A stretch of DNA of 64,000 bases, taken from the NCBI GenBank assembly GCA_036925085.1, contig JAUPFP010000071.1:632001-696000 (forward strand), in the 5' to 3' direction. The first letter of the stretch is position 1; the number at the start of each line of letters is the position of its first letter. This DNA comes from Brachycybe producta (taxonomy: Eukaryota > Arthropoda > Diplopoda > Playtdesmida > Andrognathidae). The translations under genes were made by a program, and so were the position numbers. The notes below the pieces were generated by a model, which was not told the origin of the DNA, did not search any database, and worked only from the letters and a program-made list of their open reading frames with translations. Of the stretch, positions 27,101 to 51,779 are shown piece after piece.

Positions 27101-29418
27101 TCGTTCATTTTACTATCGTCATCGAAGTCCGAGAGACGGATCGTGAATTCAAAAACTCGAGTCATGATAGTCTTAAGCAAAGCAGGGCTAAAAGAAAAAC
27201 AGCATTTAGAAGCACAAAATAAAAATAATAACCAGAATTTCGATTGGAGACTGTCGTACAGCTTGCTCTCGGCGAAAAAGTGACAATACGGAACGAAAAA
27301 CGCCGTCAGTTTATCTCCAGAAACCTGAAACGCATCGAAAAAACAAAATTAAAATAAAATATTTTGCAATGCGAAAAAAAAAAAAAAACTCTTACGCTTT
27401 TAGCAGCCACTTTCGCAAGTTCCTCAACGTAAATGTCTGCTACGTGCAGCTGAAGACCGACATCGAGATCGCCTGTTACTTGCTGTCCACGAATGACGGT
27501 GTTCCTCAAGACATTCATTAAAGACGAGATTACATCGTCTTCCCAATGTAACCTCTTAACGAGGCAGAAACATTGGTTCAGAAACTTACGAACAAACTGA
27601 AACGATAAAAGTGATTCGTAAGAAAAAACGGACAGTGATTTAAATCCATCGAGTTTTTTTTTTGTTCATTTAAGTCATCTTTTGCAAAGAAACATGGTTC
27701 ATTACCATCATAAACTTGTCCAATCTCCACTGGTCGATACCAAACCATTCTCGATTCATGGTTTTAAAGAAACAATCGATGAAAAGAAGTGCTGCATCAG
27801 TGTTACCGAAGCAATGGATCAATCCACTGATCTCAGCGGACAATTCCTCCTGTAAACAAAAAAAAGGAACAAATGTCATTCGTTAATTTCAGGTTTTGGA
27901 GATCCACTAATTTAAAGAATACAGCTTTGAAGATCGCCGCCCCTAATAGAAACGTCTACTGAACACCGTGTGTAAGTAAATTGCACATTTGGACTACTTT
28001 GCATGTTTAGTCACAAAGTAAACTCATTGACCTTCTCTTATGTACTTCTGGAAGAGGCTCATTAGCTGTTCAATGAATCGCCTGTTCAGAAAATGTACGA
28101 TCTGTGTTCTGTAAATTAGCGGATCCACATTCAAAGCAGTTAAAGTGGTATTTGAAATATAAACGACTCTCAAACTCTGCTAATTCCGTCTTTCATGTCA
28201 AAAACGACCCGTGAATGTCTTCTTGAAACTTGAAGAGTTGCTCAATCACTTACGAAAATTTTTATTTTCATATCTTTCAAAATAAGATTTTTATGTGCTT
28301 GAAAATGACCCTACTTTAAGCAGGCGATCTGTTTTTATAAACAAGTTCTATAAAAAGGTTATTTTGAAAGATATCAAAAAGAAAACACTCATAAGTGACT
28401 GAGTTACCCTTCAAGCTCTTAGCTTTGTTCCCGAAAGACAAAATAATTAATCAGTTTGAAAGTCAGCTGTTCTTTAACCTTAGACCATTACTCTCCGGGA
28501 CTGGCAACTCATAATGTGTTGAATGGCGATGGATTTCTCGTATAACCTGGTGAAACTACAACAATGGCTTCTGGTGACTATTGTACAGCCTTATAGGACA
28601 CCTATAGTACAACCTTTTCCCACTTAAGTGACGCTGCTGTCACCACCATATTAAGTCTATGGTCACCACTGTATGTAACACTAGATTTTCACAGTTACCA
28701 GTCCCGGAGAGTAATGGTCTGAGCTTTAACCAATCCTAAAAGGAAATTTAAAAGCACCTGAATTAAAGGTTTGTCTGACATCCACATACAGTAGAAGAGT
28801 CCCTTCCAAAGTTTCATCATTTCTACTTCAGAAAATACTTGAAAAAATGACAAATAAAAAAAAACACTTGGTTAGTTTAGTAATTAACAACTGGAAGTCA
28901 CCACTGCACCCAAAACACACACACATATACATCTTCAGAGGTGTTTGCAATGCAGATTATTTTTTTTGTAGTTATTATATATTGACAATGCATCTTGCAG
29001 CACTTGGATCTTAAGGTCCCTCTGCTATAGGCCAACCGGCTGCTGGCAGAGTATTTTTAAAATTGTAATTGTTTCCTGACTATTCCGAAAAATATCTAGA
29101 AACAATCTATATAAATCGGTTAACAGATTAGCTTTATTTTGGAGATAAGCTAATTCTATTCGACAAAATACCCAACCGATGAAGACCTAGGGCCCTCCTA
29201 ATAATAATAAGCCCGTTTTCCTACCATCCTCACACAAGCACATGGCCAACAAAAACCCACGTGGTTCATTCTTAAGAATTAGAAGACGACTCACGTGCTT
29301 CCTTCGATGATGACCGTGCGGCCAACCATTCTCGTAGTTTTTGGACGCCTTTATCGCGCAACTTCTTCTCGTTCCCCGCCAACATCCGAGCAAATTGTGT
29401 CTCGACTGGGATCTGCAT
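24125..29418 (-). CDS. RRP1: Ribosomal RNA processing protein 1 (RRP1/Nop52 family)
   Basis: Eleven exons in transcript order: 29418-29295, 28825-28758, 27849-27706, 27596-27396, 27324-27233, 27187-27085, 26708-26586, 26522-26422, 26342-25295, 25235-25151, 24273-24125 (745 aa). RRP1 proteins are nucleolar factors for large-subunit rRNA maturation. Family matches: [20 protein letters not shown] near the N-terminus, [16 protein letters not shown] (exon 2), [20 protein letters not shown] (exon 3) and [11 protein letters not shown] (exon 4), together the helical NOP52 domain to about residue 240. An acidic segment and a long Lys-rich, low-complexity region follow (exon 9, about residues 320-668), with three 16-17-residue repeats around [11 protein letters not shown] at about 492-541. 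The C-terminal part KVNFVLAKN and [15 protein letters not shown] matches the conserved RRP1B tail. All introns are GT-AG and in phase. Introns carry foldback and hAT elements. Confidence 0.93.
26728..27055. repeat. Foldback MITE copy in RRP1 intron 6
   Basis: The left end AAGGGTTTAAAGTGTAAATG leads to TTTAGAAACTAGAAGGGTAC; the right arm has TACCATTCTATTTTCTAA and a degraded outer part. It fills most of the intron between exons 27187-27085 and 26708-26586. Confidence 0.75.
28141..28470. repeat. Foldback MITE copy in RRP1 intron 2
   Basis: Arms at about 28230-28320 (CTCAATCACTTACG, ATATCTTTCAAAATAAG) and 28345-28420 (TTATTTTGAAAGATATC, GTGACTGAGTTACCCTTC) are inverted. The outer parts keep TTCCGTCTTTCATGTC and CGAAAGACAAAATAATT. 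Confidence 0.75.
28480..28723. mobile_element. 8-bp-target MITE with CATTACTCTCCGGGACTGG ends
   Basis: The left end TTAGACCATTACTCTCCGGG is inverted at the right as CCCGGAGAGTAATGGTCTGA. CTTTAACC is present intact on both sides (28472-28479 and 28724-28731), a perfect 8-bp duplication, which suggests hAT or another 8-bp-target superfamily and a fairly young insertion. It lies in RRP1 intron 2, directly beside a foldback copy. No coding capacity. Confidence 0.85.
28980..29075 (+). mobile_element. LINE 3' tail fragment in RRP1 intron 1
   Basis: ATTGACAATGCATCTTGC, then CCCTCTGCTATAGGCCAACC and GGCTGCTGGCAGAGTATTTTT, is the same tail as at 6.6, 16.6 and 43.3 kb. It is inserted antisense to RRP1. 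Confidence 0.6.
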
Positions 29419-31192: not shown

Positions 31193-31978
31193 TTAAGATT
31201 TATGTTGTTTCTTACCACTACCTTTACCCTCTTTCCTACGTATTGTAGCTTTATTGTCCGCTCCTCTTTTTTTAGCAGTGTCTCTCCTCTGAAGACCCAA
31301 AAGAGCTAAACTAAAAAATGAACTCGAAGACGAAGATCCGGAAGACGTCGTGGATCCGGCTCTGTCTCTACTAGCACCTTTACTGTCACCACCAGAGGAA
31401 GAACCGATAGTTGACGTTCCACTGCTGCTACTTGTGCTTCCTGCGGCCGGATCTCGACTCGGACCCGGACCCATAGTGGCCTGAACGCTCTCTCTTCGAT
31501 GCTGCTGTACAGTAGGAGGCGTTTCGCAGAAAGGACCATATCCTTGAATGGTTTCCTGTCGATGAAGAAATCCGTGGCCACCGTGAGACCTTTGATACTG
31601 TTGAGGTGAAGGGTAAAAAGAGTCCTGTTGTTGGCGTTGAAGTGTTCTACGACATTCCTGAAGATATGCAGGTTGAATGCGGTACATGCCACTGTTAGCC
31701 TGATGCATTAGTGTCTCAAGTATACGCTCGTTACGAATTGCTTTCGTGGGTAACACAACCTAATCATATTTAATACAGAAAGAAAGAAAAAAATAAAGTA
31801 AACAACAAAATTAAAACGTTTGATTAATACAGCTTTTTAAAGATTTGTATAAAATGTAATTGAATGAAATAAAAACAAGACGCAGATTTTTTTATTAAAA
31901 AAGCAAAATTAATAAATTAGGTTTTCAAAGCAGATGATGAAGAGAGAGGGGGGTAGAGAGAGAGGGGGGGGGGGGGGG

Positions 31979-32017
<39 letters not shown>

Positions 32018-33372
32018 AAAAGAGAGAGAGAGAGAATAAAAAGACATAAGCTCATAAATCAAGAAGAAAAGACGAATAAATGTTTTCTATTTATGGAGGT
32101 TTACCGATCAGCCACAAAAGCTGATTATTAGAAGGTATGAATAATGTAGGGTATATTGATTTTTGTTAGTGTAAATGTAATCATTGAATCATTCATTTAG
32201 AAAAAAGAGAGAGAAAACTCTTTTCTAAGCTACTACGAAAAAGAATTTTCAGAAAAGAAAATTTATTGTTAGTCAGGAAATTAATCGTTACCATAAGGCC
32301 TTCTACCACAAAATGGTAATTATTAATTAAATGGAATTTCATCTTTGAACTATTTCACGCCATTGAAGCTTAAATCATTTGATTCTATCTTTACTGTGTG
32401 TGACAAGATGCATTAAATAAAACAGAACGTTTTTAGAAACAACTTTTAAAAAAATCAAGATTTATTTTTTGTAAACTAGAAAAGTACAGGAAAATGTGTA
32501 TATACAGTATATGTAATTATTATATTGATATTTTTAAAAAGAAACTTTTTATGGCGGTTTGAAAACGATCAAATTTGAATGTTTATTTTTTTAAAAAATA
32601 TCAACATTAAATTCATACAAAAATTTCTTCACTTTTCCAGTTTTACAAATCAATTTTATCAACAGGTGATTTTCGAAATCGTGAAACTAGAAATAAGAAA
32701 CTAGAATGGTTGCTTAATCACTTAATAGTATTTTCATGTTAATATATATTTCAAAATAAACGTTTTATAGAAAACTTGTTATAATTTTTAAGATTGTCCT
32801 CAAGTGATTGGGCTACCCTTCAAGTTTCCGATAAACAGAACAACCAGAGTTCAAAGGGCATTTATACCTTAAAAGTTAGTTCAAAATTTTATTTCTGAAC
32901 CATGTTTAATATTGAATAAAAATGAATAGATTTTTTATAGCATCTTTAAAAGTCTATTTTTCTAACAGATAGAATTTACAAGAAAAATGCAACAAAAAAA
33001 AAATAAACGAAAATTGTAAACGTTATTTTTAAAGGGCGTCATTTTTAACCACCCCCTAAAAACTCATACCACTAACAATATAAGATGAATGACTGAATGA
33101 TAAAAAGTTCGATACCCAAAGGCAAACAGAAACGAGTTGCATTTTTTTTTTTCGATTTTTGTCTCCTATTTTTTTTTTCACCGAATATATTCTAAGCCAA
33201 TAGATAACTCCACCTCCTTGAGATTTTTTTACCTTCTCAATTCTCAACCCTAACCCATTCTCTAAACGTATTCGATTTTTTCTTCTTTCCAAACGAAATC
33301 AGGTCACAAACCACGACTTCAAATATAACACAATAAAAGTCAATGTAAAAAGTGTAGCGAATTCATTGCAAA

Positions 33373-33446
<74 letters not shown>

Positions 33447-36400
33447 ATATAAATATATATATAATGTAAACAAACATAAACACAGACACACAATAAATAA
33501 AGTGAGAGAAACCTTAATCAATTCTGTCGGTGATATTTTGTACAATTTTAAATCCATCGTCAGTCTTTCCATTGTACAACGAAATTCCAGTTGCGAATCT
33601 TGAAGAGAGAAAAAAAAATTGAAGCAAACAAAATAAATTTTAATAATATACAATCGCCATAGTAACAACAAAATTTCGTATTTTTTATAGTTACTATATA
33701 TATTTATACATGTACAGTGTATACTTACTGCCCCCTAAAGCTATATAAAACTAGAAAAGTTTCAAAAATGTAAACAGTGATTGCCTACTCACAGGAGGGT
33801 TATTCAAATTCATACAAAATGAGGACGCAAGACCTTTTTTTTCTTCTCTCTCTTCTTCTTCTCCTATCTATAAATATAGGCATCGTTATTAAAAATTAAT
33901 TATTTATCTCTTAATATTCTAGCTAGAAATTTTCGGTTATTATTGTTATTCTTATTATTATTATTTTTGTTTGATAAAAATAGAACATGTTTTCTTTTTC
34001 TTCTTTCTCTGAATATACATTTAGCTAAAAACATCATTTCTCATTTTAATAATTCTTTTTTCATATAATGTATACCTAATGTTATGTACAACCATCAATT
34101 AAATGAGATTTATCGATTGATGGATGAAACATTTAAAGGAGAACGAAAGAAGAAAAAAAAAGCAAATTACAACATATTTTTCAAAATGGAATTCAACATT
34201 CGATCGTTCATAATATAATAATAATAAAAAAGAAATGAGATAGAAGAGAAAATTTTTTTTTCTGAAAATGACGAAGGATGATGACATTTCGATCATAACA
34301 TAAATATGATTAAAAAAAACTGGAACGCCATATATCAATAAAGGAAGAAAGAAAGAAAACAAGAATAGACTAGAAATAGAATAGAATAAAGGCAGCCAAA
34401 CCTCGGCAACTGGATCTGCGCACTTTAGTACACGCCCACTTGTACATCATCTCGAACTTTCGAACTTCGGCCACGGACAACTCTCGACTCATAATCATTT
34501 GAACCATTGATTCCGAAAGTTCATAAAAGTCTCCATAATCAAACAGTTGGTCAGCTCGAGATTCAATGTATTGAAGCAACATGTTGACCAACTCTGATGC
34601 TGAAGTATAACGCCAATAATAATTTTCTAATGAAGTCAACATGGCACTCACCTAAAACAAACAAACAACTAACTGCAAACACACTTCAGACAAGCATTTA
34701 CAAAAAAAAAAGTTTAAAATTTGCCAGAAACTAAAATAGTAAATGGTTCTGCAAACGATATCTTTAAAAATTAACATTTTTAAGACAATTTGAAACTCAT
34801 TTTATACAAATTGTTGCGGCGAAAAACATAAAAATTGACCAGTTTCAAAATACCATACACAAAAATTTATTGTAAAAAATATCATCATAGAAATACCTGT
34901 ACTTAGCATAAGCCTACATCCATCTACTATTCTAGTTTTGAACATAATTTAATTTTTTTCTACTTGATCAGCATCAGCCTCTAAATATATATGATGTACT
35001 GTAAAATAGTAAATATGCTACTTGACTAAATAAATTTTTGGGCGCTCACTAATACCTTGTTTCCATACTATACATACTTCAGTGTGTTTCCATTTTTAAA
35101 TGGAAACACACTTTGGTTAAATGATTTTGTCACTTCCTGTTAAACAGTTGTGCATTTTGTAAAATTTTCAGTCAAAGAGTGGTTTACCAACTCCATTGTT
35201 CAACAACCATAGTTAATAGAAAATTAACTGTGGTTACCTTTTTAACTGCAGTTAATTTTTGTAGTAGAAACGAAGTACAGTGTCATTATACTGTTAAAAT
35301 GAAACCCAGCTTAAAGATAACAACTCATACTCATACTCATTACTAGTCTAGCTTCTAAAACGTTTTCAATTTCTTATTAAAGCTTTCTTCTAACACATAG
35401 AATATTCAAAAGTGCAATTCCAGTCTTATCTTGCAGTTGTATATTTTGTAACAGTCATTATATAAAACATAAAGTACGAAAATAAAAAATTGATTACCAC
35501 TTCAATTCGAAGAAATTGTCGTGCGTGATGAAAACAAGCCTGTAAAAGTTCGGGAAGATCGTAATGTTCGGCAGCACAAATAAGTCCAGGAATACTACGA
35601 CACGTAAGAGGACACGCTCCAGTATGTAAATACTCTAAAAGCGTTTCGAATGTGTCGCTATCAAATTCGATTACACTAAACTATTTGAATAAAAAAAAAT
35701 AAAAAAAATGAGAAATTCGATTGAGAACGTCTGTCGCTTTGCTTACATACAGAAGAAAAAACACACAGAGAATTTGCATTTGATTTATTTGCATAGAGAA
35801 GAAGAAGAAGAAAAAAAAACCAAGCTTCGTATGAATTCAATTTAAATGACGAACCTCAGTTTGGCACAATTTATTTCGGTCCACTTTTTGAATGTCGGCA
35901 CAGACACTGAGACGAGGAACCATTAAAGAAGGATGTGGGCGGCTGTCGTTCTTGTCTTTACCTATTTTTTTCAGTTATTGATTGAAAGAAAATTCTATGT
36001 AAAACATTTTGCTTACAGTTTTCAAATATAAATAATAAAAAATGAGCAAAACAAAAGGATAAATTAAGCATGGATTGAGCAAAAAAAAATCTAAAAAAAA
36101 GCCTTTATTGTACAATTCGATTTGTAAAGAACTATATTTATTTCTAAAATTGTAAAACATCTATCTGCTTGAAATACATATATTTCAAAACTCTCTTCGA
36201 TTTTATTCGTTTTAAAATGCACTTTGACTAATTCGGTATTTTTGGAAAGACTTTTTCCATTTTCTTTTTTAATTTATAAAATATTGTATGGTTTTTGGTC
36301 TCTTCATGACACTTGAAAATACTTCAATGTTTTGTCTTTTCTGGCCTTTCAAATCAACAAACTAAACAAACGCCAAACTGAATAACAGGCAAACGCCCAT

Positions 36401-39400
36401 ATTACTAAAAAAAATAGTAACTGTTATATCATTTAGTCTCGCAAGTTTTAACGACAGAATTATTAAATAATGTAAAAAATATGCAATAAGGCAAGAAGCT
36501 GCACATAGAGGCTAAAATGAACTGATAGCACAAAACTAATTAAACGCTAATTGGAATAAGCATCAAATTCAACAAACGTAAAACTTGTTTCAATTTGGCA
36601 ATTAATCAAGTATTCTCTTCTAAATGTCTTCGCATTTTTAGAAAAATAATTAAAAAATAACTCCATATCATGTGAACATGGCCTCGATTTCTGACCATAC
36701 ATTGTATATATTGAAAGTCCAATATCCAGTGGATAGTTAAATTTGCTATCCTATCCTATGTTATGAGGTTAGAAAACAAAATTCATTTGAAGAAAAAAAA
36801 ATCGCAAAGTACAATAGAGGCTCAAAGTGTTGTAAAAGACTAAAACACAAATCATGCTAGGAAAAATAAAAATAGAAGCCAAAAAATGTGTTCCTGAATA
36901 CGAGCTAAACAAGAAACACCGACATAAAAAAGACACTGTGACCCCATCATCACAACAAGTGGTCAAACAGGTGATTGATGACATACAAACATCAGATAAG
37001 ACTGACAGGTTGAAATGGCTGTCCAACCAACCAACGTACAGGTAGGTACGTCAACATACAAACATACAAACAGATAGAGAGTAGAGAGACGAGAGACGAG
37101 AGAGAGAAAATAGTGGTACGGTGGAGTTGTGTGGAGGGTTTGGTGCTGGCCTTGGGGTGGGATGGACTTACAATCGCAATCACTCTGCCACCTACGCAGG
37201 TTTTCGTTTTCATCGCTAGACTGGCTGTCCTGTTTCTTGAAAAAACTACGATCCCAACGGGCCGAAAGAGAACTTCCCAAACGAGAAAAGGCTCGCATCA
37301 CCATCGGACTGCTCGGAGCACTCTTCCTAAAAATTAATAACAAAGTACAAAGATCAAAAAACACCTTTAGAAATCGATAAAAAAACACACTTGAACAATT
37401 GATTCTATACCTAGTTGGCTCGTTGATGTCAGGCACTTGAAGAAAATTACTAGATTTGGTTGAACACGAATGTGCCAAAGCCTTGCTCACCACATCCAAT
37501 GGACATTGAGCACTTCCCAATCGATTCGAAAGGCCATAAAGCATCTCTTGAAATACTCTTCAAATCCAAAATAAATATTTAAAAAGTATCTCGTGAAAAA
37601 TATATGCACTGTATATAAAGGTAGCCCAATAGTAAATTTTAATGTATGAAGTTACGTGTAAGTTGGTTTTAAAATGTAAACGGCACTGGAGAAACTCTGA
37701 TTATTTTATTTTTCATAAACAAAATTAGAAAAAAAACTTGAAAGTGTTTTACAAACTAGAAGGGTATCAATAAAGGGATCAATAAAATCAGGGTATTTTC
37801 ATCTTGATATCTTTTAAAATAAAATTTTTATGATAGCTTGAAAATGTCTCAAGTTTAAGCAAACGACATTTTTTTAATTTTTGTTTATAAAATGTTTATT
37901 TTGAAATATATCGACATGAAAATATAAGTTATTCAACTACTGTTCTAACACACTTTCAATTTCTTTTTAATGTTGCTTCTGAAATACTAAATAACCAGAC
38001 TTCGAAAATCAGTTGTTCATAAAATATCTTAAAGATTTTTTTCTTCAAAATTAGCATTAAGAAAATTTTTAAAGTTAGAATGTAGAATTAATTAACGAGT
38101 ATTCTAAACATTTTATCAAGATTATTTCTTTAAAACGTTTCATCGAAATTGTCATGAAAATATTTTTAGGAAATTCATAAACTATTCTAGATTCTAACAA
38201 TATTTGTATTTTTAAAATTGTTTCTAAAAAAATGTTTAAAGTCAATTTTGTAAATAACTGTGTGAAAATTGGTATAAGATTTACTTGTGGACCACCTTAA
38301 AATATTTAACGATAATAAGAGCAATGAGTAATGTGTACTAATTTGTATATACCGACTACGAACAGCTAACAAGGACCTGACAGCATAGTGTTTGGTCTTA
38401 TTTTTGCCAGGTCCAACGTGGAAAACCACATCACAGAGCATATTAGAAGCAATAAACGCCTTAAAAAAGTCTTTCGAGAGTTGGTCGTAACCCTCGAAAA
38501 GGTCACGAACACTATCCAAAAGAGGACTTGAAGGACGCATGTGGCCAATGGGCCGCCAAGAACCCCTCCTATAAAATAACAATGACCACAAATATTTATC
38601 GTTAAAAAAAATCCTATCAAAAAAATATCTGAAGAAGATTTATTTGAATCAGTATGAAAAACACCTGTAAGGTTTTGGAATTTGTCCAGTTTCAGCATGA
38701 TTTTGAAGATTCGTTACAATATCTTCTAACATCTGACATCTTGTTCGATCCTAATATAAACGATTTTTAGGTTTTAAAAAAATCTCAAAAATTTATAATA
38801 CATTTTAAAAAAATTAATTAAGCTTGTAAAGAACATTTTATTTATAGTTATTGTAAATTTTAAACAACTGCAAGTAATATTATATATTGTATAATATAAT
38901 ACATGTATATATAATTGCATTACTGTAATTTTTACTTTTACTTTTACTGTTTACTTTTTTATATTTCCACAGTTCTAATGAGGAAAGTTTTTTTTGAAAA
39001 ATTAAAATTTTCTGAGAATACAAAAATCATCTTTATCATGTCTCGATTATGTCATTAATTTCCCTTTTTCTGTGCGATTACATTAAAATCACTCTCAATG
39101 ATGGTATTAGAGAATGAAAAAGGTTAAAAATTACAGGTTTACAGGCTTCAGTAATTTTTTTTTAATTTTACTCAAATCGTAACCGAAACGATTTTTTTTT
39201 AGAAAATACATAGTGGTTGTTAATTTCTATTGATAGATTCACAACAACATTTATTCAATGTTAACCTGCATTCGAGCGAATTTTGGAGCGGAATAACTTG
39301 CTCTTTCACCATTCACAATTTTCGTTAACAGCCACTCACGAAACAATGGACCCTAAACATAAACGCAAAAAAAAAGCAAAGTGGGTAGTAGTAGTAGATA

Positions 39401-42400
39401 CATACGGTCGATCCAAACAGGTTTTTTTAATTATTTATTTTTGCAATTTGAATAATTTTTTTTTTGAAACTCATTATGCTAAACGAAAATATAGCTAAAA
39501 TGCAACCAACAAGATTCTTTATAAATATATACCCAACTTCTCCTCCCCTCACGACTAGAAGAAAAAAATTCTCAAAATCAATTTACGATGCACAAAAAAA
39601 CCTTTTCAGCATTTCAAGACTTAATTAAGATTTCTAAAGAGAAACAAATATGAATCTAATGGTAATGATGACGGTATCCACTTTGTATAATGTGCTATTT
39701 TTTTTAGATTTTATCTAAATCAAATTTTGAAATCTTTCTAAACAGTCAACTCCTCCCTCCCAGCCCTTATACATTCAAAATATCCAACTCATTCAAGAAT
39801 TGGTCTTCTTCTCTTTTTTCAGTCATCTATTTTTTTTTAAAAGCAGCATCGATTTATAAAATTCCCATGTTCAATATAGCAACAAGCTCTTCTAGTATAG
39901 ATATCTTTACTAGTATGTTTGCTATATACTTATACTACTACTAATAAAAAATACTCCTCCTTTTAAATCTTCTTTTCAATGTACCAACCAAAACCCTCCC
40001 TTCCCATACCACATTTCCTCTCCTTATTTTTTACAAAAAAAAAACTTAAATAACACGAAAATAAACTGAACTGGCACAGAGTTATATAAAGACTCAAGAT
40101 AAAAGTGAAAAAATCATCAATTTTTTTTCTGTTCTGTAATCGATTGGATTGAAGAAAATAAAATGTCACATCACTTTAAGAGATGTTTATAAGAAAAATA
40201 AACTGATAAGAAAAAACGACAGAAAGAGAGAGAGAGAGAGAGAGAGAGAAAAAAGAAAGATGTCATAAGTTGTTCTACAAATGAAATAAAAAACTATAAT
40301 TGAGTCATGTGCTGAAAAAAATAATAATAACCAATGTCAGAAACCAAACCTTCTCAAAAGTGGATTGAAGCCAAAGATATGGTTTATAAGAACCAACTTC
40401 ATCCCTTGATACCACTGTCACCTGTCAAATAAGTCATAATTTATTCATTAATATAATTAACAAGAATAATAATAATAAAAGATTAGAGTCTAGAGAATGG
40501 GGTTTGTTTAAGTTTGCTGACCCACCCGATAATTTGTGGGACTTTTAATATCTTCAGACGGAATTGCCTGAACCACAATAAAGGTGTGAAGAAAATGGGA
40601 TTTAATGCAGGCAGGTGAGAACTCTGTGCTATCATCATCCAAAAACACAACACATACAATGTCGTTTCCAATATGCCTCTTACGTTGTAACTATGTACAA
40701 AAAAAACAATAGGTAAATAACCTTTTTAATTAAAAAAAACCACACAAAATATGCAAAACACTTTATAACTTTTATGCATTTCTTTTTCTGGTTTCTAAAT
40801 TTTTGTTCCAAATCTTTTTAACTTTACTTATTTATTTCAAAAAAGGTTTCTCAAAATAACTCCTTTTAACTAGACTATTCTTTATGTGAAAAAGAAGTTA
40901 TTTTAGTCTTCATTTTGTCCTAAACTTTCATACAACTATAATTTTTCTATAATTGAAAAAAAAAATTATGAAAAACCAACTTTATGACAATTTTTTTCTT
41001 ATTTGTAAATTGTAAAGGTTGTAAGTTGTGATCACAAATTTAAGGTGACGCAAAATCATTATTAAGTTTTATTAACAGACTAAAACTCAATGCTATTGAA
41101 AAAATATTTCAATAATAACTTCAAAGAACATTTAAGCATTTTATTTGAATATTCACTTAAGGTAGTTTTAAAGTGTAAACGCTTCTTGAACTCTTCTTCA
41201 TTCTGCCTTTCATAAGCAACATTAAAAAAACTTGGAAATGTTTTAAAAATTAGAATGGTAGTTTCATTTTGTCATCTTTAAAAATAAGCATTTTATGTCA
41301 GTTTGAAAAACTAAATACTTTCTTTAGGTAAAAATAAATCAGTTTTTTTTTATCAAAACCTGAGGCGTGCTACTAAAAACAGTTAGTTAACTTATGACTG
41401 TCTAAAAAAATTTCGTCAACTATTAATCAACTGAATTTTTTAGTTTAATAAAATATATGTTAGTACAATTAATTAGTGAATGAGAAGTTACAATAGAGCT
41501 TCGATTATCGGAATGTCGGTTATCGGAACCGTCGATATTTATCGAAACCAATTTTTATTTTCTTATTTTTATAGAAATACAACTTATGGAAATAAAAAAA
41601 ATGTCTTGCAATCGATTTTTCATTACTTTTTTACAGTTTTTTAATTGGAGTTCGATTATGTGAACTTTTGATTATTGGAACTATGCATGTCCAACATTAG
41701 TTCCGATAATCGACGTTCTATTGTAATTGCTTTGACTAATTGGACTAATTAGTCATTTTAGTTTACTAAAATCTAATTAAAATTCCTCAATAATTTTTTT
41801 CAAGCTACTTTGATATACCATCAAAGTAGCTTGAAAAAAATCATCGAGGAATTTTAATTAGGTGGTAGACTCATGTAATAATAGAGGATGATATCTCATA
41901 AAAAGAGAATGATTTATATTTTTTTCACTCTTTTCATCTAAAAAAAAGTAATGGATCAATGACTTTTTGAACACTTAAAGTGCATTTCGTAGTTTTTCGC
42001 TGAACAAACGATGTTGTGTTTGGAAAAATGAATGGAAAGAAAGAAAGATGAAAAATACAAGAAGAAAGGTCCCAACTGACAGTTAGTTGGTTTGTGTGTT
42101 CTTTCTTACCTTTTGTGGATCGTTTGGTTCATATGGAAGCAAAGTGGACACATGAAACATAATCTCTATGTTACGCCATAGAGTGTAAATTGAATGGGTG
42201 CCAGTCAAATCATGAACCGTGTCCAGACCGCCTTTATACTTATCAAACCCTAAAGCAATATTTTTTTTGGAAGAAAAAAATTGTGAAAAGAAAAGAAAAA
42301 AACAATCGATAAGTTAGCCACTGGTCAACATCACTCATAATACATGAAACAAATTTATAATGTTATATCAAAGTTACTTTTAAAAAAAAATGCTATGAAA

Positions 42401-43042
42401 AATTCGTTTTCTAACAATTTCCCTTGTGCCCTTACAAGTTGACTTGGTAATCATTGCTTACAGCAATTGCCTCTTGAGAGAAGATTTTCATTTTTCACGT
42501 CAACAAAAAAAAGCAACCAAAGTTAGAATTTTTTTAAATAAACTATAAAACTATTTCAGAACAAAACAGAAATAAACTTTTCTAATCAGAACACATAAAA
42601 ACAGAAACGAATTTTGTCCAAACTGTAGAATAGAATGATAAAGAAAGAATCGGAGTTAGCCAGTTAGCAGACTAGTAGGGTAAAGACGTGAACATCTCCA
42701 CTACACATACATCACACATAAAGCCTCAGAACGTTTCGCATTCTGCTTTAATTCGTTCTGTTCTGATAGTTCGCTTCTGTTCTGAGGAAGTCTACAAAAA
42801 CTCATCGGGATTTTAGTGCGAATATCCTAAAACGCATGGAGGTGGGGTGGGCCCCATTTATATTTATAACTGATCTAGATTAGTACTTTTTGTTATCTCA
42901 GCTTATTAAAAAAATATGGTTGGAAAGTAATTAGTGTTTTGAGAACTATAAGAAAAAACAAACAGACGAAGGGTATTTTAGTATTAATATCTTTCAAAGT
43001 AAACAATTAAAGACCGATGTGAAAATGACAACCACAAGTTCA

Positions 43043-43100
<58 letters not shown>

Positions 43101-46100
43101 TACTTAACACTTAATAAGAGGGATTTTTGCACGGTAAAGACTCAGTATTTTTGGAAATTTGTACCAAGGTTGATTCAACAATGGAATTTACTTCCTGAGA
43201 AGATTGTGCATGGGAATGTTTTGATTTAGGGAATCTATATGGATGCCTTAGGACAAGAAATATATATAAATTTTGCCATTATATTTACTTGAGGAATTGT
43301 TATAGTGGCTGGTTTATTTTGACAATGCATTTCAATGCTGCTTTTGAGCTAAACAGTCCCTCTACCACAGGCCATGCCAGGCTGCTTGCAGAGTAATTAT
43401 TCAAATTCACTTGTAATTTAACTTGAACCCAGCTTATATGGTTCAAGATACAGATTAAGTGCCAAGTTTTCATCTTGAATTTGTACCTAAATATGGTTAT
43501 AGTTTTTGCTTTATCTTTAATTTATATTTTCAAACTCTAATAAAAGTTTACTTTTAAGTTCAGTTTTATGCTATATGCTGCAATTATTCTTAAATGTAAA
43601 GGCATTTTTGCTTAAAAACTACGAGCGTATATTGGCTCTTTAGAAAATAATGTACTTAAGATTGAATACGCAGGTTGTATGCTAACAGTGATTGCTGTTA
43701 TTCAGGAGAAACTCGTAATTAAAAAAATGCATTTAAGAAGAAAAACATTGAAAATAAGGGCATACACAAAAAAATGCTAATGGAGAGAGAACCTAAGAGC
43801 CAAAAACTTCAGTCATGTTTGATTAAAGGATTTTGAACATGCATTTACGACTCTACCTAGTATGAACAAAGTTGACTGAAACAGGATTTATTGACACATA
43901 TGAAGGGTATTTGTAGGCGGTCCATACTAAATGTAGAGTGTTTGTCACTTGTTTTGACTCAAACATTGGAAGGAGAGAGAGAAATTCCAGTTATAAAGAA
44001 ACACCCACAAGAGAGAGGATTTCAGTCACTCAACAACATATAAAGTAATCCTATGAATTGAACGCCTACAGTCAGTACACACAAGTACAATACGTATATA
44101 TAGAGGCCCACGTACTACATACAGTACATACTCAAACCTATGGCAGACAACAAGGCAAACCCCTAATATCTTTAAGGGTTATATAAAGTGTGGGTGGCGA
44201 GGGGGTGGGGGTGGATTTAGAAGGATATCCACCTTATCTAAACAGAGAAATATCGATCAACAAAACATAAAAAAATAACACGCGGTAAATAAAAAACACA
44301 GAGTGAACGACAGCGAGAGAGAGAGAAACCCCCTTGTGACATGAACATGTTATATTATAGTGAATGAGAACGAGTAGACGGCATTTTTTTTTTCTTTTTG
44401 AAGGATTGATCCCACGCAAATGGGGTAACCACCCACGTACACAACCGTCCAATATTTTACTATAAATTCACATATAGGTATATACGCCCACTTATTAATA
44501 ATCGTAAACATGCTTACCATTGTATAGATGTACCATAATGTAGATGTCTTATTTTGTGTTCATTAAAAGCTCATTTATGTACGAAGAAAGGTATTAAAAA
44601 CAAAGTTATTAACTTTCAATTCAACGTTTTCATAACTTTTCAACTAGAATATCATATTTCACTGCCAATGCAAACAATCAGTTATTCTGTACAATTACTA
44701 GACAATGTTCAAAATCATCAAATCGATAATATTATCAATCTATAAATTTAATATCAGTTATTCTCCGGTAATGTGGAACAAAATAACAAGCTAATCTACA
44801 TAATGTCTTTAATATGTTTTCTGCTTTTTTCTATGTTTTATTAGAAACATTAACGCAAAATCGAATTTTTTTTAGAAATTAGAACAATTTTTCATGTTGA
44901 TATATTTCAAAATAAACTTTTTATAGACAAAAATCAAAAATATTGCCTGATAAGCATCGTTTGCTTACAATTGAATAATTTTCAAAATGACATGAAAAGC
45001 TTATTTTAAAAAAAAACAGCAACGTGAAAATACCCTATACTTGAATGTGCTAGCTATACACGTAGTTTTCTAGTTTCTAAAACACAAACTTTAAGTCTTT
45101 ATTGTAGATTTGCTTATTGTTTTAGATATTCTGTACATTGCCTAGAATTCATGTGAACTGTAACATAATATTTCTGTGGCGAAATAAAATCGTCCTTATA
45201 AATATATCAATATTTTTATAGTCGGGGGAGGTGGTGTTTCATTCTAATGTTGAGTGGCCCTTTAAAATACTGTACATTTAACACTGCCTACACACACACT
45301 CTTCATTTAAATATATCAACCCCCTCAATGTTTTGACAATAAATTATTTGGCTGTATTACAACAAATGAGCCGTTTGCTCATCTGTAATAATCCTTCATT
45401 ATTTAACATATATGAAAAATTATAGATGTAGTAGTAATATCATAATCAAAGATCCATAAATTTATGGTATGTGTAGTTAGTTGTAAAATAATATCATCAT
45501 CATCATCTTCCCTTTTTTTCTTCTTCTCGATATAGACACCATTTCAGATAACGACAACATGTTTTATATAAATTCTGAATAGAAAATCAGAAATAGAACA
45601 ATTTTAGTAGGGTTGCTAAGAAATAACGTATTTGCTAATTGGGGATTTATTAAAAACGACGTGTGTTCTATCCTCGCCCCCTCTCCCTTTTAACTACTTT
45701 CCCTTTAGGCACCATTTTTCCTCCTCATTTTTCCTCCAAATTCCCAATTTGCTACTAAATGATAAGCAAGAGAAGAAAAAAAAAATAATACTAAGTAGCA
45801 AACGAAACGAAATAAACTATAAAATCCCTTCGTTCCAATTACTGCATGGATTTTCAAATATATATATATTTTTTTCTTCTTCTTTTTCTCTCATCATCGA
45901 TCGATTTTTAGTAACTTGAATGAATTTATATTAAATTTATTTACCTTTGAGTCTAACTTTATCACCCAAAAGAAGAAGAAAATCTTCAAAAAGTGGACTA
46001 TGGTCGCAGTTGTCCAGAATCTGTTCTTCTGTTGTTTGGCCTTCTTTGACATAAGCTACTCCAACTTTCAATTCTGATTTGATAAACACCTGGCAACAAA

Positions 46101-46130
46101 TACATAGACAGAAAAAAACACAAGATATAT

Positions 46131-46218
<88 letters not shown>

Positions 46219-49200
46219 GAAAAATTGATATTATTATGATTGATTGACACATACTACAAAAAAAATTCTAATTTCCTTAACTTTTTTTCTTTTAAAACAG
46301 CAAAAACAACAAAAACAGCAACAAAAACAAAGTGTTCAATGTTTCATATCCATTTTAGAAATTCCAACATAACAGAAAAAAAAAAATGTTTCAAATTTAA
46401 ATATTGTGATTTTTTTACCCAATATTCCCTCCCATAGACACCGTGTTTGTATATGTGCTTCATAAATTATTATTCCAAAGCAGTTTTCTAACATTTTGTT
46501 TGAAATTTGTATATATAATGGAAATAAATTTGCCAAAAAAAAATCCTTCTAAAAAGAATAACACAAACCAAACAAACTACGAAACTGAGGGTGGAACATT
46601 TTCTTTTCTCTTTTACTTTCCTTTCTATTTTTTGTAAGCAAATTTTGCGCATAATTTGCTATGAAATTTCGCCTTTTCCACCTGACAAATTCCAAAATCA
46701 GTTAAGTTTTACCTATAGAACTTTCGCTGATCCGTAAAAAACATGTCTGATTCCTCTTGATGTAATAATAGCATATAATAAAATAAAATATCTATGGTTT
46801 CTGAATTGTTTGTTGCTCGGTTATGCGACAATGGCATTTATTTTGATGCAGCAATCAATTTCTTTGATATATTTATCTGTTTGTAAGAATTAAAAACGTT
46901 TAACCTCATACAAAAATGAAAATCCATTTTTTTTCACTTTGCGATAATTATATTAAACAAAACGTTCTCGATCAATATTTAATTATTTTAAAACAACCTT
47001 ATTGGTGATTTTCTGTCAAAAATAGAAGACAAATCTAAATAAAAATCATTTTATTTCTGTAAGTACAGTTGACAAACTGGAAAACAATTTCTCTTAAAAG
47101 TATTTTTCCCATCATTTTGTCTTTTGACAAGTTTAATTTTCAGCAGATTTTACGATATTTTTCGTATAATGTGAAAAATGGCCTACAATAGGTAAAAAAA
47201 ATAGAGTTTAGCTAATTTGGCTCAAACTAAAAAAGCAATTTTACTGAATGTTACTGAATTATATAACAAAAATTGAATTTTCAACCTAAAAAGTTGCATT
47301 TTATCTACACAAAGTCAGACGTCTCGACGTTGCCAGATGATATAAATTAAAATAATATTATTATTCTGTGTAAATTTTGTCTGATAATCGATCGCCACTA
47401 CACATATTTTTTGGCTTTGCTCATATTTAGAAGGTGCCCCCGCCCAACAACGATAATTTATAAATGTAGAAGGCTCGCTACTTATTTAATTGTTAAACCC
47501 TCATTTTCTCTTATAATGGACATCTTCTACACTACCGTAGTGGGCGTACATATTTTGGAAATGTTAAAAATTGAAAAACAACCCTGTAGGGGTCGACCGA
47601 TACATCGGCAAATCAATTGTATCGGCGCTAATAATTAAGATTTTTAATATATCGGCATTTTAACGCCGATTACGCTGATGCTTTCAGGAGTGCAACAAAA
47701 AAATTGCACAACAAAACCTAAAAGAACATATTCATAAGAAATCATTTAATCAGTGAATGTAAACAATTTTTTTTAATGTGAACCACTTTCGTTGAAAAAA
47801 AAAGCCCAATTTTGTTTCTCAAGTTACCACGAATTGTTAAATTAATATACAATATTTCATTATCATGTTTCTCATTATTGCTTTTTTAAAATTATTTTTT
47901 TGTAATTTTATTGAAAATTTTTCCTGAAGGTTTTTGTTGTTGTTTTAAATCAATATTGAAAGCAAATTTAGGGCTCTAAATTCATAATGCACTTTAGTAC
48001 TCAATAAAGGTATTAAATATCATTTTTTAAAAAACTAATCGACAATATTTCGGCATCGCCCAATTGTTTTTCCTGAACAAACTGCAAAATAATCGGCATC
48101 GGCATAATTTTAGTATCAGTGCATCTCTACAGCCCAGCCCCCAAAACTTTAAACTAAGCCCAACCATTAAAGCCCATGAGGCCCACCAGCCCCATAAGAG
48201 TCATGAAACTCATTTTTCATAAAATTGCCATTATAGGCCCAAATTCGTAATCCAGCCCTATGAAGTCCGCTGTACTTTTGCAAAAAGTCTAGTTTTCCGT
48301 ATTTTTAATAAATCCATTGAATGGCGTTCAGCACGCCATTAACTTTGAAATATAATAATTTCTGATTCAAACACGTGTAGACAACACATAGGCCCGGCGT
48401 TAGGGCAAGGCGAGCGAGGCAACCGTTTTGGGCCTTCGCTTTCAGGAGCTCCGCGCTGCTGACTAAACATTTTTTTCTCGGCCCCGCTCATCACTTGCTT
48501 CCTCGGGCCTCGCATACTCTAGGGCCGGCAGTAGCACTGATAACACAATCGCCAATATTTTATTTTAATTCTACTTGATTCACTTCGTCGTTTTCTGGAA
48601 GTGTCTTTCCTAAGTCCACAAATGGAAGATGAAGATAGAAGAAAAATAAGAAGAATCGAGGATTAATTTGTAACAAAGATGAATTTTGATGTTAGAAAAA
48701 GATGTCCTCTTTTGTTTTCTTCTCAAAAGAAATTCTCAAGAGAGAGAAAGAGAAAAAAAAAAGAAAGATTTTGGACTTTGATAAGAACAAGATGTTGATG
48801 ATGATGAACCATGATGATAAATGATTCTGAATTTGTTGTTTGGCTTTTATCAGAAGAACAGGCAAACTCAGACAAAGACTTTGTACGTGCGTACAATGTG
48901 TTATATTATTTATAATAACAATAACAATAATGTAGAAGAAGAGAACGTTGTACGCACCTGATCTAATTTGAGAAGTTCATCTGGTGTTGACGGTAACTGT
49001 CCCAACTTCAACGGTGGATTGAGTCCAATGTCGTCCCCGAGACATTTCACGATTGCCTCTCGATCGTAACGATTGGCGGCGATACTAGAAGCCGGAACCA
49101 GACCGTGGACACTGTAACTGGCAGTACGAACCATGATTCTATAGATCGAAACATACAAAGAGAGAGAGTGAAAGAAAACAAAATACAAAAAATAAAACAC

Positions 49201-49454
49201 AAAACAGATTCAATTATTATGCGAATTACTTTGCTAAATAATAAGTGTGTTTGGAAGAAGAAGAAAAAAAAATGGGTCGATATTTTAGATTTCAATTTGT
49301 TTTAATAAAAATCGATTATAAAATCATCTTTCAAAAAGCAAAATTGATTTTTCTCTATTTTACTTAAATATAAAAATTGTTAAATTATAAAAATATATGA
49401 AAACAATGTTTAAAATAAATAATTAATTAATAGTAACCTGTCTCTTTAATTTAC

Positions 49455-49499
<45 letters not shown>

Positions 49500-51779
49500 T
49501 ACTATTATTATTACTACTATTATTATTATTATTATTATTCAAATGAGAAAATAGACTATTTTTCAATTTCTTTCAAGAAATTAAAGTAAATCAATTTTTA
49601 ATTTTAAAGGTGGTTTTAAAATGTAAAAAATGCATCTCGAAATCTGATTATTCTGTTTCTTAGAAGCAAAATTCAAGAGAAACTTAAAATTATTTTAGAA
49701 ATTTTAGAATTTTATAATTTTAGAATAAGCTTTTCATCTCAGTTTGAGATAAACCCAACTATAAGAGACAATATTTTTAAAAACAAAATTTGTCTATAAA
49801 ATAGTATTTTAAAACATATCAACATGAAAATCCTTTTTAAGTGGTTCGGCAACCGTTCTAGTTTCTAACACACTTTCAATTTCTCCTTAGTGTTGCTCAT
49901 GAAATGCAGAATAATTAAGAGTTCGTAAATCAACTGTTCAATAAAACATTTTAAATAAGAATTTTGAGAACCATTTTTATTTTAATTGATCGCGATTTTT
50001 AGTATTTAATTAACTTTAACAAATTTATGTAATTTAATATGTTATCAACAATATGGTAAATAAATTAACAAAAAAAAAGTTTTTTTAAGATCAAAACTAT
50101 TTTCATGGTGAAAACAATTTCGAACTTATTTACAAACTAGAAGGGCAAACAAAGATCTACAGATAATTAACATTATGCCATAATAGAAACTTCACTTTTT
50201 ATGGTCGTTTTCACAGAAGTTTTTTTATAAAATGACCACAAAAAGTTGCTTTTCCATGATGTCATCCTGAAAATGATCCATATTTCTTCATTTACTTATT
50301 CTAGCCGCGAACAAATCTTAAAATGTTTTTTAATAGTTGATTTTAAAAGCGTTTTCGTCGTTCATTCTGCGCCCATTAAAAGATTTTCGTCTTAAGAAGT
50401 TTGATGGACAGTTTGCTCATTTTTAAACTTTTGTTTATTCAGCTGTATTTCATGGAGCAACCAACACTAAGAAGAAAAATTAAAAATATGTTAGAAACTA
50501 GAACGATAGCTGAGCTACTCTTCTAGTTTCTAAAACACGCAGTTCGAGGGCCATTTACACTTTAAAATCAGCTTAATATAGTAAGTCATTTTTTGACCCT
50601 CCCCCCATTGGAAACTAGAAGTGTAAAGCATTCAATTAAGAGTAATTTCATGTTGATTGTTATCTTTCAAAATAAGCTTTTTAGGGTCAATTTGAAAACG
50701 ACCCAACGTTTAAAAATGTTTATTTTGAAAGATAGCACCTTTGAGTGATTATGCTACCCTTCTAGTTTCTAAAAGACTCAAGTTTCTCATGATTTAGATG
50801 ACGTCCACCTTTATTGATAGAAACTAGAAACTGACCTGAACTGATCTCGGTTACTGAACGTCTCCTGTTTGAGCGAAAGAATGACTGGTCCCAAATCATC
50901 GTCACTTCCGAAATAGTTCCAATGTTCGGACGCATAAAAATACTTCTCGTAAGTTTCCTGTTCAAAAGAGGCCAACTCAAAAGTTCCGTGTCTTTGAAAT
51001 GTCTCTTCAATAGTTAGAGGAGGTATTTTAAGACTTATACAAACTGAAACGGAAACGTTTTCGTTGTTTAACGTATTATTGTTATCTATAATATCGAGAG
51101 GAGTCGTCGTCGTCGTCGTTGCTGCTGCTGCTGATGTCGTCCCTGTTGTGCGTACTGAGGAGATGTTGTCATCGGATAACGAAATGTCTTTGATGGCCGA
51201 AGAAGTGGATGGGATATCTGCTACATCGGTAATAGTTGCAGCAAAAGCTGCAGCTGAATTCGGAGCAGAAGACGAAGTTGTAGGAGGAGGAGGAGGAGAA
51301 ATTGGGGCAGTGGTAATGGTAATGGTCGTTGTGGTCGTCGTCGCAGGACTGGAAGACGTCGCCTCCGCTTTGTGAAGACTGCACTCTATCCAGTAACCTG
51401 GAGTCGGTACCATTTTGTGCGGATACCGAGGACACAGTGATTCTTGACATGCCTGAGGAGGTAACGGAAATACGAGGGTTGTAGAACTTTTTCGACGAGC
51501 CACCGCATAACCGAGACTTTGTCCTTTGAACTCTCGAAGAGTCTTTAAAAAATCGACACTGTCCGAAGACAAAACGTCGGCATAATGCAAGTCGCAGAGA
51601 AACTTGTTGAGCCAACGTTTTGCCTTCGTAAGGTTCGAACCGGACAAAACTAAATTGCAAGTGTCGCAACGAAGACATTCTTCGTGATAAAAACCACGTT
51701 CGTCTCCCGGTTGTTCCCATGTTCTAGATACTTGATACGATAGAATGGGAAGGTTGCAAGCGAAACATATCACAGACAT
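31193..51779 (-). CDS. LIM + Rap-GAP + BTB-BACK protein with serine-rich tail
   Basis: Sixteen coding exons in transcript order: 51779-50836, 49138-48958, 46089-45945, 42249-42110, 40690-40526, 40421-40350, 39352-39266, 38750-38665, 38568-38353, 37557-37411, 37326-37172, 35961-35855, 35680-35498, 34651-34402, 33598-33513, 31759-31193; 1176 aa, every junction GT-AG and in phase. Residues 5-65 form one LIM finger (C5, C8, H32, C35, C38, C41, C62, H65). After a Thr/Ser/Pro-rich linker (about 140-230) comes a Rap-GAP domain (about 265-578) with [49 protein letters not shown] and RHIGNDIV, whose N479 is the catalytic Asn that stimulates GTP hydrolysis by Rap. A BTB domain follows ([27 protein letters not shown]; then [17 protein letters not shown]), split by about 125 residues of insert. 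A BACK-like part has [18 protein letters not shown]. The tail is Ser-rich and basic. The C-terminal half resembles arthropod serine-enriched protein (gprs). The role is inferred: Rap inactivation tied to a BTB adaptor. Confidence 0.9.
31932..32034. repeat. (GA)n/poly-G simple repeat
   Basis: GA dinucleotides interrupted by a 14-base G run, in the last intron of the LIM/Rap-GAP/BTB gene. Confidence 0.9.
32473..32885. repeat. Two adjacent foldback MITE copies
   Basis: A diverged copy (about 32473-32645) has tips GTAAACTAGAAAAGTA and ACTTTTCCAGTTTTAC. A clearer one (32690-32885) has GAAACTAGAATGGTTGC and GGCTACCCTTCAAGTTTC. Both lie in the last intron. Confidence 0.7.
33376..33444. repeat. (CT)n microsatellite
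   Basis: About 68 bp of CT, in the intron after exon 33598-33513. Confidence 0.95.
34725..34945. repeat. Foldback MITE copy
   Basis: GCCAGAAACTAAAATAGTAA at the left and CTACTATTCTAGTTTTGAA at the right are inverted tips. The arms contain the family TTAACATTTTTAAGACAATT and AAAATATCATCATAGAAATA blocks. Confidence 0.7.
37665..38015. repeat. Foldback MITE, near full-length copy
   Basis: It starts TTGGTTTTAAAATGTAAACG, passes ACAAACTAGAAGGGTATC and returns through CAACTACTGTTCTAACACAC to an outer arm with TGTTGCTTCTGAAATAC. It lies in the intron between exons 38568-38353 and 37557-37411. Confidence 0.8.
40220..40248. repeat. (GA)n microsatellite
   Basis: About 28 bp of GA, intronic. Confidence 0.9.
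41157..41400. repeat. Half copy of the foldback MITE family
   Basis: It has a well-preserved left outer arm (TTAAGGTAGTTTTAAAGTGT, CTGCCTTTCATAAGCAAC) and core (AAAATTAGAATGGTAG). The right arm is missing. Confidence 0.7.
41491..41723. mobile_element. pogo/Tigger-like MITE, 233 bp
   Basis: CAATAGAGCTTCGATTATCG at the left and CGATAATCGACGTTCTATTG at the right are inverted repeats flanked by TA on both sides. Inside are further TTATCGGAAC and GATTATTGGAAC copies in opposite orientation. No transposase. Confidence 0.88.
41773..41861. repeat. Near-perfect 42-bp hairpin
   Basis: The two 42-bp arms (41773-41814 and 41820-41861) differ at two positions and are separated by 5 bases. The arm sequence includes TTTTTTTCAAGCTACTTTGA. 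No terminal family resemblance was recognised. Confidence 0.92.
43043..43098. repeat. (AT)n microsatellite
   Basis: About 54 bp of AT dinucleotide in an intron. Confidence 0.95.
43140..43410 (+). mobile_element. 3' end of a LINE reverse transcriptase ORF plus tail
   Basis: Plus-strand reading gives [18 protein letters not shown], a recognisable carboxyl-terminal segment of CR1/L2/Jockey-type LINE ORF2. It is followed by the dispersed tail (TTGACAATGCATTTC, CCCTCTACCACAGGCC, GGCTGCTTGCAGAGTAATTA). 5'-truncated, as usual for LINE copies. Confidence 0.75.
44865..45095. repeat. Foldback MITE copy
   Basis: The core AGAAATTAGAACAATTTTTC is degraded at the left. The right arm AAAAGCTTATTTTAAAA and TAGTTTTCTAGTTTCTAAAA is clear. 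Confidence 0.65.
46138..46212. repeat. (AT)n microsatellite
   Basis: About 74 bp of AT dinucleotide beginning 50 bp upstream of exon 46089-45945 of the LIM/Rap-GAP/BTB gene. Confidence 0.95.
47585..48131. mobile_element. hAT-like non-autonomous element
   Basis: The left end TGTAGGGGTCGACCGATA and the right end TATCAGTGCATCTCTACA are inverted with a few changes. Sub-terminal ATCGGC/GCCGAT motifs recur in both halves. Flanking 8-mers do not match, so the target duplication is lost or my boundary is off. Confidence 0.65.
48393..48535. mobile_element. GC-rich hAT-like remnant
   Basis: A GC-rich block from GGCCCGGCGTTAGGGCAAGG to CTCTAGGGCCGGCAG in an AT-rich intron, with loosely inverted GGCCGGC-type ends. 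A preceding C-rich stretch (48131-48260) may be another old repeat. Confidence 0.45.
49455..49540. repeat. (ATT)n microsatellite
   Basis: ATT/ACT trinucleotides over about 85 bp, in intron 1 of the LIM/Rap-GAP/BTB gene. Confidence 0.93.
49610..49930. repeat. Foldback MITE copy
   Basis: Left outer arm AAGGTGGTTTTAAAATGTAA with TCTGATTATTCTG; right arm CAACCGTTCTAGTTTCTAAC and AGTGTTGCTCATGAAATGC. The left inner core is degraded. Confidence 0.75.
50125..50580. repeat. Fragmented foldback MITE copies
   Basis: ACAAACTAGAAGGGCAAAC at 50133, and AGAAACTAGAACGATAGCTG joined almost directly to GCTACTCTTCTAGTTTCTAA at 50492-50532 (arms with the centre deleted), plus an outer right arm to about 50580. 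Confidence 0.65.
50608..50790. repeat. Foldback MITE copy beside exon 1
   Basis: GAAACTAGAAGTGTAAAGC at the left and GCTACCCTTCTAGTTTCTAA at the right. It ends about 45 bp from the 5' splice site at 50836 of the LIM/Rap-GAP/BTB gene. Confidence 0.8.

Follow-up and report, generated by a model that had tools for sequence, protein, structure and literature searches.

The 64,000-nucleotide stretch of the millipede Brachycybe producta analysed here (contig JAUPFP010000071.1 of assembly GCA_036925085.1, positions 632,001 to 696,000 of the forward strand; hereafter, the window) carries a gene whose predicted product joins a LIM finger, a Rap-GAP region, a BTB domain and a BACK-like region in one chain. 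We propose, with a probability of about 0.72, that the gene is one intact unit and specifies a sixth kind of Rap-GAP, probably a paralogue from the Rap1GAP branch that has gained a LIM finger at the front and carries BTB-BACK in place of the Rap1GAP tail, and that the product is most likely a dimeric, scaffolded Rap-GAP. The gene model, the domains and the separateness from Rap1GAP rest on the sequence, whereas the branch, the catalysis, the dimerisation and the partners are what we infer from it. The features, in window coordinates, are as follows.

31193..51779, minus strand: whole coding region, 16 exons, 1176 residues (exon joining and translation).
51579..51767, minus strand: LIM finger, residues 5–67, ligands C5, C8, H32, C35, C38, C41, C62 and H65 (Pfam, ligands and spacing pattern).
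51384..51398, minus strand: GYWIE motif, residues 128–132, counterpart of GYWVD in the Rap1GAP of this genome (residue comparison).
49027..50957, minus strand: Rap-GAP dimerisation domain, residues 275–352, exons 1 and 2 (PF21022, 60.5 bits, over the cut-off).
38739..46020, minus strand: Rap_GAP catalytic domain, residues 399–582, exons 3 to 8 (PF02145, 198 bits, E value 1.2e-58).
40664..40666, minus strand: Asn479, counterpart of the HIGND Asn of Rap1GAP (alignment to human Rap1GAP).
38569..38664, minus strand: intron 8, 96 bp, the seam between Rap-GAP and BTB (exon model).
37533..38447, minus strand: first half of the BTB domain, residues 648–687 (weak alignments here, of 8.6 bits with BTBD6, 2vkp, and -0.5 bits with KLHL11, 3i3n).
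35855..37532, minus strand: insertion in the BTB domain, about residues 688–815, 17% Ser (alignment and Ser count).
35516..35680, minus strand: second half of the BTB domain, exon 13, about residues 814–870 (PF00651).
31706..35515, minus strand: BACK-like region including the 3-box position, residues 871–1006, exons 13 to 16 (PF07707 below the cut-off, and KLHL11 alignment).
31193..31663, minus strand: serine-rich tail, residues 1021–1176, 18% Ser (Ser count).

The 16 exons lie on the minus strand, the first starting at 51779 and the last ending at 31193, and join into a single frame of 3531 nucleotides, i.e., 1176 residues and a stop codon. All 15 introns are of the GT-AG type, the phase matches at every join, an in-frame stop precedes the start ATG, and the window is free of any N. 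The number of exons, the strand, the limits and the length given in a preliminary description of this DNA are borne out by the exon joining, the intron borders and the phases. The codon score of the claimed frame exceeded those of both other frames in 15 of the 16 exons. Among 2000 intron samples, 4 to 9 reached the exon score while open in the case of exons 3 to 8, and 0 or 1 did so for the remaining exons, exon 15 (considered below) aside. A spliced aligner that was given residues 265–606 of the model returned the same seven introns, a result that checks the aligner and carries no independent weight, since the query was the model's own protein. Independent support comes from three introns that recur at the equivalent place in the Rap1GAP gene of the same genome. 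The introns of the gene also hold long dinucleotide and trinucleotide runs (33376–33444, 46125–46218 and 49457–49539).

At the N-terminus, all eight zinc ligands of the LIM finger are present at LIM spacing. The spacing pattern, which detects only a single-exon LIM and would miss one split by an intron, matched once in 264 kb (six Rap_GAP loci, both strands), in this gene. Against the PDB, the best match of the LIM part was FHL2 (E value 0.21). Exon 1 encodes, in one uninterrupted open frame, both the LIM finger and the beginning of the dimerisation domain, so that their join requires no splicing. The Rap_GAP match exceeds the Pfam cut-off and covers profile positions 1–184 of 185, while human Rap1GAP (PDB: 1srq) aligns to residues 276–598 (E value 5e-74). 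The Asn of HIGND has a catalytic role in Rap-GAPs. Both it and the His of the motif are conserved, together with the Gln for which the 3brw chain has a substitution, and because these three residues are kept, Rap-GAP chemistry is the safest functional prediction; pairing through the two dimerisation elements would be the next safest. The full Rap-GAP domain with HIGND reported in the preliminary description holds, with Asn479 in the aligned place and nearly the whole profile covered, and Rap inactivation, put forward there, is supported as the predicted core chemistry.

In the C-terminal half, the BTB profile PF00651 scores 41 bits in two stretches, which is over its cut-off. The two halves lie 126 residues apart, as against 6 in BTBD6, and the front half aligns weakly. 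Residues 822–1006 are colinear with KLHL11 (E value 0.001), and it is this alignment that backs the BACK assignment. The BTB, BACK and serine-rich tail described earlier can all be retained, BACK by way of KLHL11 though under its cut-off.

Exon 8 (residues 579–606) contains the end of the Rap-GAP domain, as the Pfam match extends to residue 582 and the PDB alignment to residue 598. Because the domain extends into exon 8, the seam between Rap-GAP and BTB is intron 8. It had been placed between the exons at 39352 and 38750, a site that falls inside the Rap-GAP domain; the seam lies one exon later. That earlier placement, at exon 7/8, was rejected also because an intron occupies the equivalent place in the Rap1GAP gene of this genome.

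A search of the genome (295 Mb, 442 contigs) returned 13 Rap_GAP matches at six loci, the window gene included. The locus on C30 is Rap1GAP, being 65% identical to the human protein. At C2:13.37M a single SPAR_C match lies 3 kb past the domain, and we take this locus to be SIPA1L; no PDZ was found in the three SIPA1L pieces tested. The C25 locus is GARNL3, with a CNH domain adjoining, the C49 locus is TSC2, with a Tuberin domain adjoining, and the locus at C2:11.67M is RalGAP-alpha, whose best PDB match is RalGAP-alpha-2 (E value 8e-73). The possibility that the window gene is itself the Rap1GAP of the species was rejected, as C30 is closer to the human protein (65% versus 42%). The window gene is thus an extra, sixth predicted Rap_GAP gene, separate from Rap1GAP. 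Searches of the genome at E ≤ 0.001 with the BTB half gave eight matches, all of them exons of the window gene, and the single match to the LIM part was also the window gene; no second copy of either was found in the 295 Mb. Relatives were also absent from a collection of viral contigs (searched with the whole protein, exon 13 and exon 9) and one of genome contigs (whole protein and exon 13), both of which are without animal genomes.

The placement in the Rap1GAP branch is based on introns, a motif and a domain. With Rap1GAP (human 1srq and 3brw, and C30) the window gene has in common the dimerisation and catalytic domains, the Asn of HIGND, a GYW motif and three intron positions (470/0, 549/0 and 578/0). 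The expected number of shared positions is 0.057, and three were reached in none of 20,000 random placements, with all sites treated as equally likely. In this test the TSC2 and RalGAP-alpha rows were left out, GARNL3 was compared from residue 377 onward, and one artefactual 14-bp 'intron' was kept in the SIPA1L row. Position 470/0 also occurs in GARNL3, which makes one position in common with the window gene, and SIPA1L has none; SIPA1L and GARNL3 share four positions with each other, so that the four closer genes fall into two pairs by intron position. No intron of TSC2 or RalGAP-alpha equals one of the window gene, and 393/0 of TSC2 is common with Rap1GAP. At E ≤ 0.001, PF21022 matched the genome at two loci only, three times on C30 and once in the window gene. 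Unlike the window gene, Rap1GAP on C30 showed neither a single-exon LIM pattern in front nor, in its vicinity, any match to the BTB half. SIPA1L and GARNL3 resemble the window gene in the Rap_GAP domain and differ from it in the adjoining SPAR_C or CNH. The introns, the GYW motif and PF21022 together suggest that the window gene is probably a Rap1GAP-branch paralogue, while the sequence tree leaves it unplaced. The earlier view of the front half as Rap1GAP-like therefore probably stands for the branch, as judged by introns, and fails for the gene itself, since the Rap1GAP of the species is the separate gene on C30.

Several results weigh against the proposed reading. Rap1GAP, SIPA1L and GARNL3 are nearly equal in their sequence identity to the window gene, at 42–44% (with the GARNL3-like row starting at residue 377, as the exons before that point appeared to be spurious, and the end of the RalGAP-alpha row trimmed). 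A five-row sequence tree gives 47/29 for the grouping of the window gene with Rap1GAP, a clade that is unsupported. In a seven-row tree this grouping is 3.8 log units worse, with p-AU (the p value of the approximately unbiased test) at 0.076; the values for grouping with SIPA1L and with GARNL3 are 0.168 and 0.16, respectively, so that neither is more strongly disfavoured. Two domain scores fall short of the Pfam cut-offs. LIM (PF00412) reaches 19.8 bits in the spliced protein and 21.5 bits in the exon alone (cut-off 22.9), and BACK (PF07707, residues 893–955) reaches 14.9 and 19.7 bits (cut-off 20.9). The canonical LIM finger of the preliminary description is nevertheless kept, as all eight ligands stand at LIM spacing although the score is just below the cut-off. 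Exon 15 is the exception in codon scoring, with -2.1 for the claimed frame versus -1.2, a score that 33 of 2000 intron samples reached while open; it is accepted because the KLHL11 alignment covers it. Finally, intron 8 contains one AATAAA and a read-through into it meets a stop after 5 codons, while an in-frame ATG early in exon 9 might be the start of a BTB-only form.

The last of these results bears on whether two adjacent genes, one encoding LIM-Rap-GAP and the other a gprs-like BTB protein, have been mistaken for one. Such a pair would account for the ATG of exon 9 and for intron 8 having both a poly(A) signal and a stop, and it would suit gprs being a BTB gene, as the preliminary description has it. 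We judge it decidedly unlikely, because the last Rap-GAP exon and the exon that begins the BTB domain are only 96 bp apart, intron 8 has an ordinary donor (6.8 bits) and the highest-scoring acceptor of all 15 introns (10.1 bits), and the phase is kept. It is a better, if still minority, possibility that a single locus produces several isoforms, i.e., the full-length protein along with a LIM-Rap-GAP form ending in intron 8, a BTB-only form, or both. The shorter LIM-Rap-GAP form could arise because intron 8 has AATAAA and a stop, and the exon 9 ATG would serve the BTB-only form; however, AATAAA is commonplace in this AT-rich gene, being present in 13 of its 15 introns. The claim that one gene joins four domain types is accordingly supported by the phased exons, the 96-bp seam intron and its splice sites, at the level of a prediction from genomic sequence.

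Under the preferred reading of a dimeric, scaffolded Rap-GAP, the LIM finger would recruit the protein to a partner, with actin or junctions as plausible sites, and the Rap_GAP domain would insert its Asn to accelerate the hydrolysis of Rap-bound GTP. Two copies would be held together by the dimerisation and BTB domains, and the BACK region and the serine-rich BTB insert may recruit or regulate partners.

A role as a cullin-3 substrate receptor had also been suggested. In BTB adaptors the phi-x-E motif sits in the alpha3/beta4 loop (PMC3616122). The corresponding place of the window protein reads S-N-R, by eye, on the weak stretch of the KLHL11 alignment (-0.5 bits), and R-N-K in an alignment with SPOP, in which the front half of SPOP is laid on the insert; moreover, about 120 residues interrupt the loop. 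The suggestion is weakened by both observations, yet an interrupted BTB domain can bind cullin 3, as does the first one of RhoBTB, a bipartite domain that carries an insertion (PMC4931677). Recruitment of cullin 3 by the window protein is therefore possible and not strongly favoured. One mechanism built on it is a GAP-coupled ubiquitin ligase adaptor, in which Rap_GAP would make Rap-GDP, BTB-BACK would recruit cullin 3, and Rap or a LIM-bound partner would be ubiquitinated, much as LZTR1 acts on RAS proteins. LZTR1 uses its Kelch domain to bind RAS proteins and its BTB-BACK part to bind cullin 3 (PMC8814762), and a structure with GDP-KRAS has been reported for it (PMC12803243); it offers a precedent for the removal of Ras-family GTPases by a BTB-BACK protein. 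Such an adaptor is also favoured by RhoBTB and by the second BTB half and BACK, which are colinear, across the 3-box region, with KLHL11, an adaptor of cullin 3; and the tripeptide I-N-E at residues 723–725, inside the BTB insert, could replace the phi-x-E motif. With the residues at the aligned place and the broken loop set against these points, we consider the adaptor rather unlikely. Doubtful to a greater degree is a wider form of the idea, namely an undescribed animal family of Rap-GAPs that inactivate Rap and then, via their own BTB-BACK dimer, deliver either Rap-GDP or a partner held by LIM to cullin 3, thus uniting GAP and ubiquitin-ligase receptor in one chain, with arthropod gprs as a remnant or fusion partner.

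The dimeric, scaffolded Rap-GAP that we prefer differs from each of the closest BTB proteins. KLHL11 and other BTB-BACK cullin-3 adaptors are colinear with it over residues 822–1006, but it has no Kelch match in Pfam, no phi-x-E at the aligned place and an interrupted BTB domain. RhoBTB likewise combines a small-GTPase-related part, an interrupted BTB domain and BACK in one chain (PMC4931677); RhoBTB, however, is a GTPase with two BTB domains, whereas the window protein is a predicted GAP with one. LZTR1 is similar in being a BTB-BACK protein with Ras-family GTPases as targets, and it differs in that Kelch binds them and that a GAP domain is not mentioned in the excerpt of the article (PMC8814762).

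Elsewhere in the window are a Strabismus/Vangl gene of at least two exons (20068–22002, plus strand; 521 and 224 bits), a piece of a Nop52 gene (27309–27665, minus strand) and a piece of a CCDC84 gene (61680–62129, minus strand). Rfam and tRNA scans of the window returned no matches. The 20-mer TTAGAAACTAGAANGGTAGC occurs at 16 places between 18508 and 54404 with ≤3 mismatches (expected 0.04), e.g., at 50611–50772. This repeat is short and interspersed, with some copies in inverted pairs, and is miniature-transposon-like; genome-wide, a 162-base copy gave 69 matches from 40 scored of 1968 first-look candidates. Large contigs carry COX1 copies at C1:12697416–12698753, spanning positions 1–435 of 436 with an added TAA, and at C17:4027703–4029047, both of which are probable nuclear copies of mitochondrial DNA. 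The order in the mitochondrial contig (C442:10001–15359, protein genes named by eye) looks rearranged, with nad1 (minus strand) before trnI-trnM-trnC-trnW-cox1, and nad2 was not seen within this interval. In insects and crustaceans a leucine tRNA lies between cox1 and cox2; here cox1 is followed by the cox2 frame at a distance of three bases, with no tRNA found in the interval, a tentative hint at a chelicerate or myriapod. The cuticle domain is an arthropod marker, and the genome has 33 matches to it, many of them clustered, which indicates an arthropod.

Rap controls cell adhesion, and what flanks the catalytic domain is the usual basis for dividing Rap GAPs into a few families. No description of the combination LIM, Rap-GAP, BTB and BACK was found in the open-licence papers searched, in part judged by title, although the architecture may already be present, unnoticed, in animal protein databases. 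It may be ancestral or, alternatively, a lineage fusion, the two origins named in the preliminary description. A sixth arrangement, coupling Rap inactivation to LIM and BTB-BACK, would provide a directly testable link from Rap switching to BTB or cullin-3 biology. According to the preliminary description, the back half may resemble the arthropod gprs, or serine-enriched protein, which would have a BTB domain and a serine-rich region. That gene is scarcely treated in the open-licence literature searched; it is a single-gene family in Drosophila (CG18471) with two genes in Anopheles (PMC1352350), and the excerpt of an article on mite BTB proteins names neither gprs nor Rap (PMC4671623). The window gene may tell what gprs is, or was, part of.

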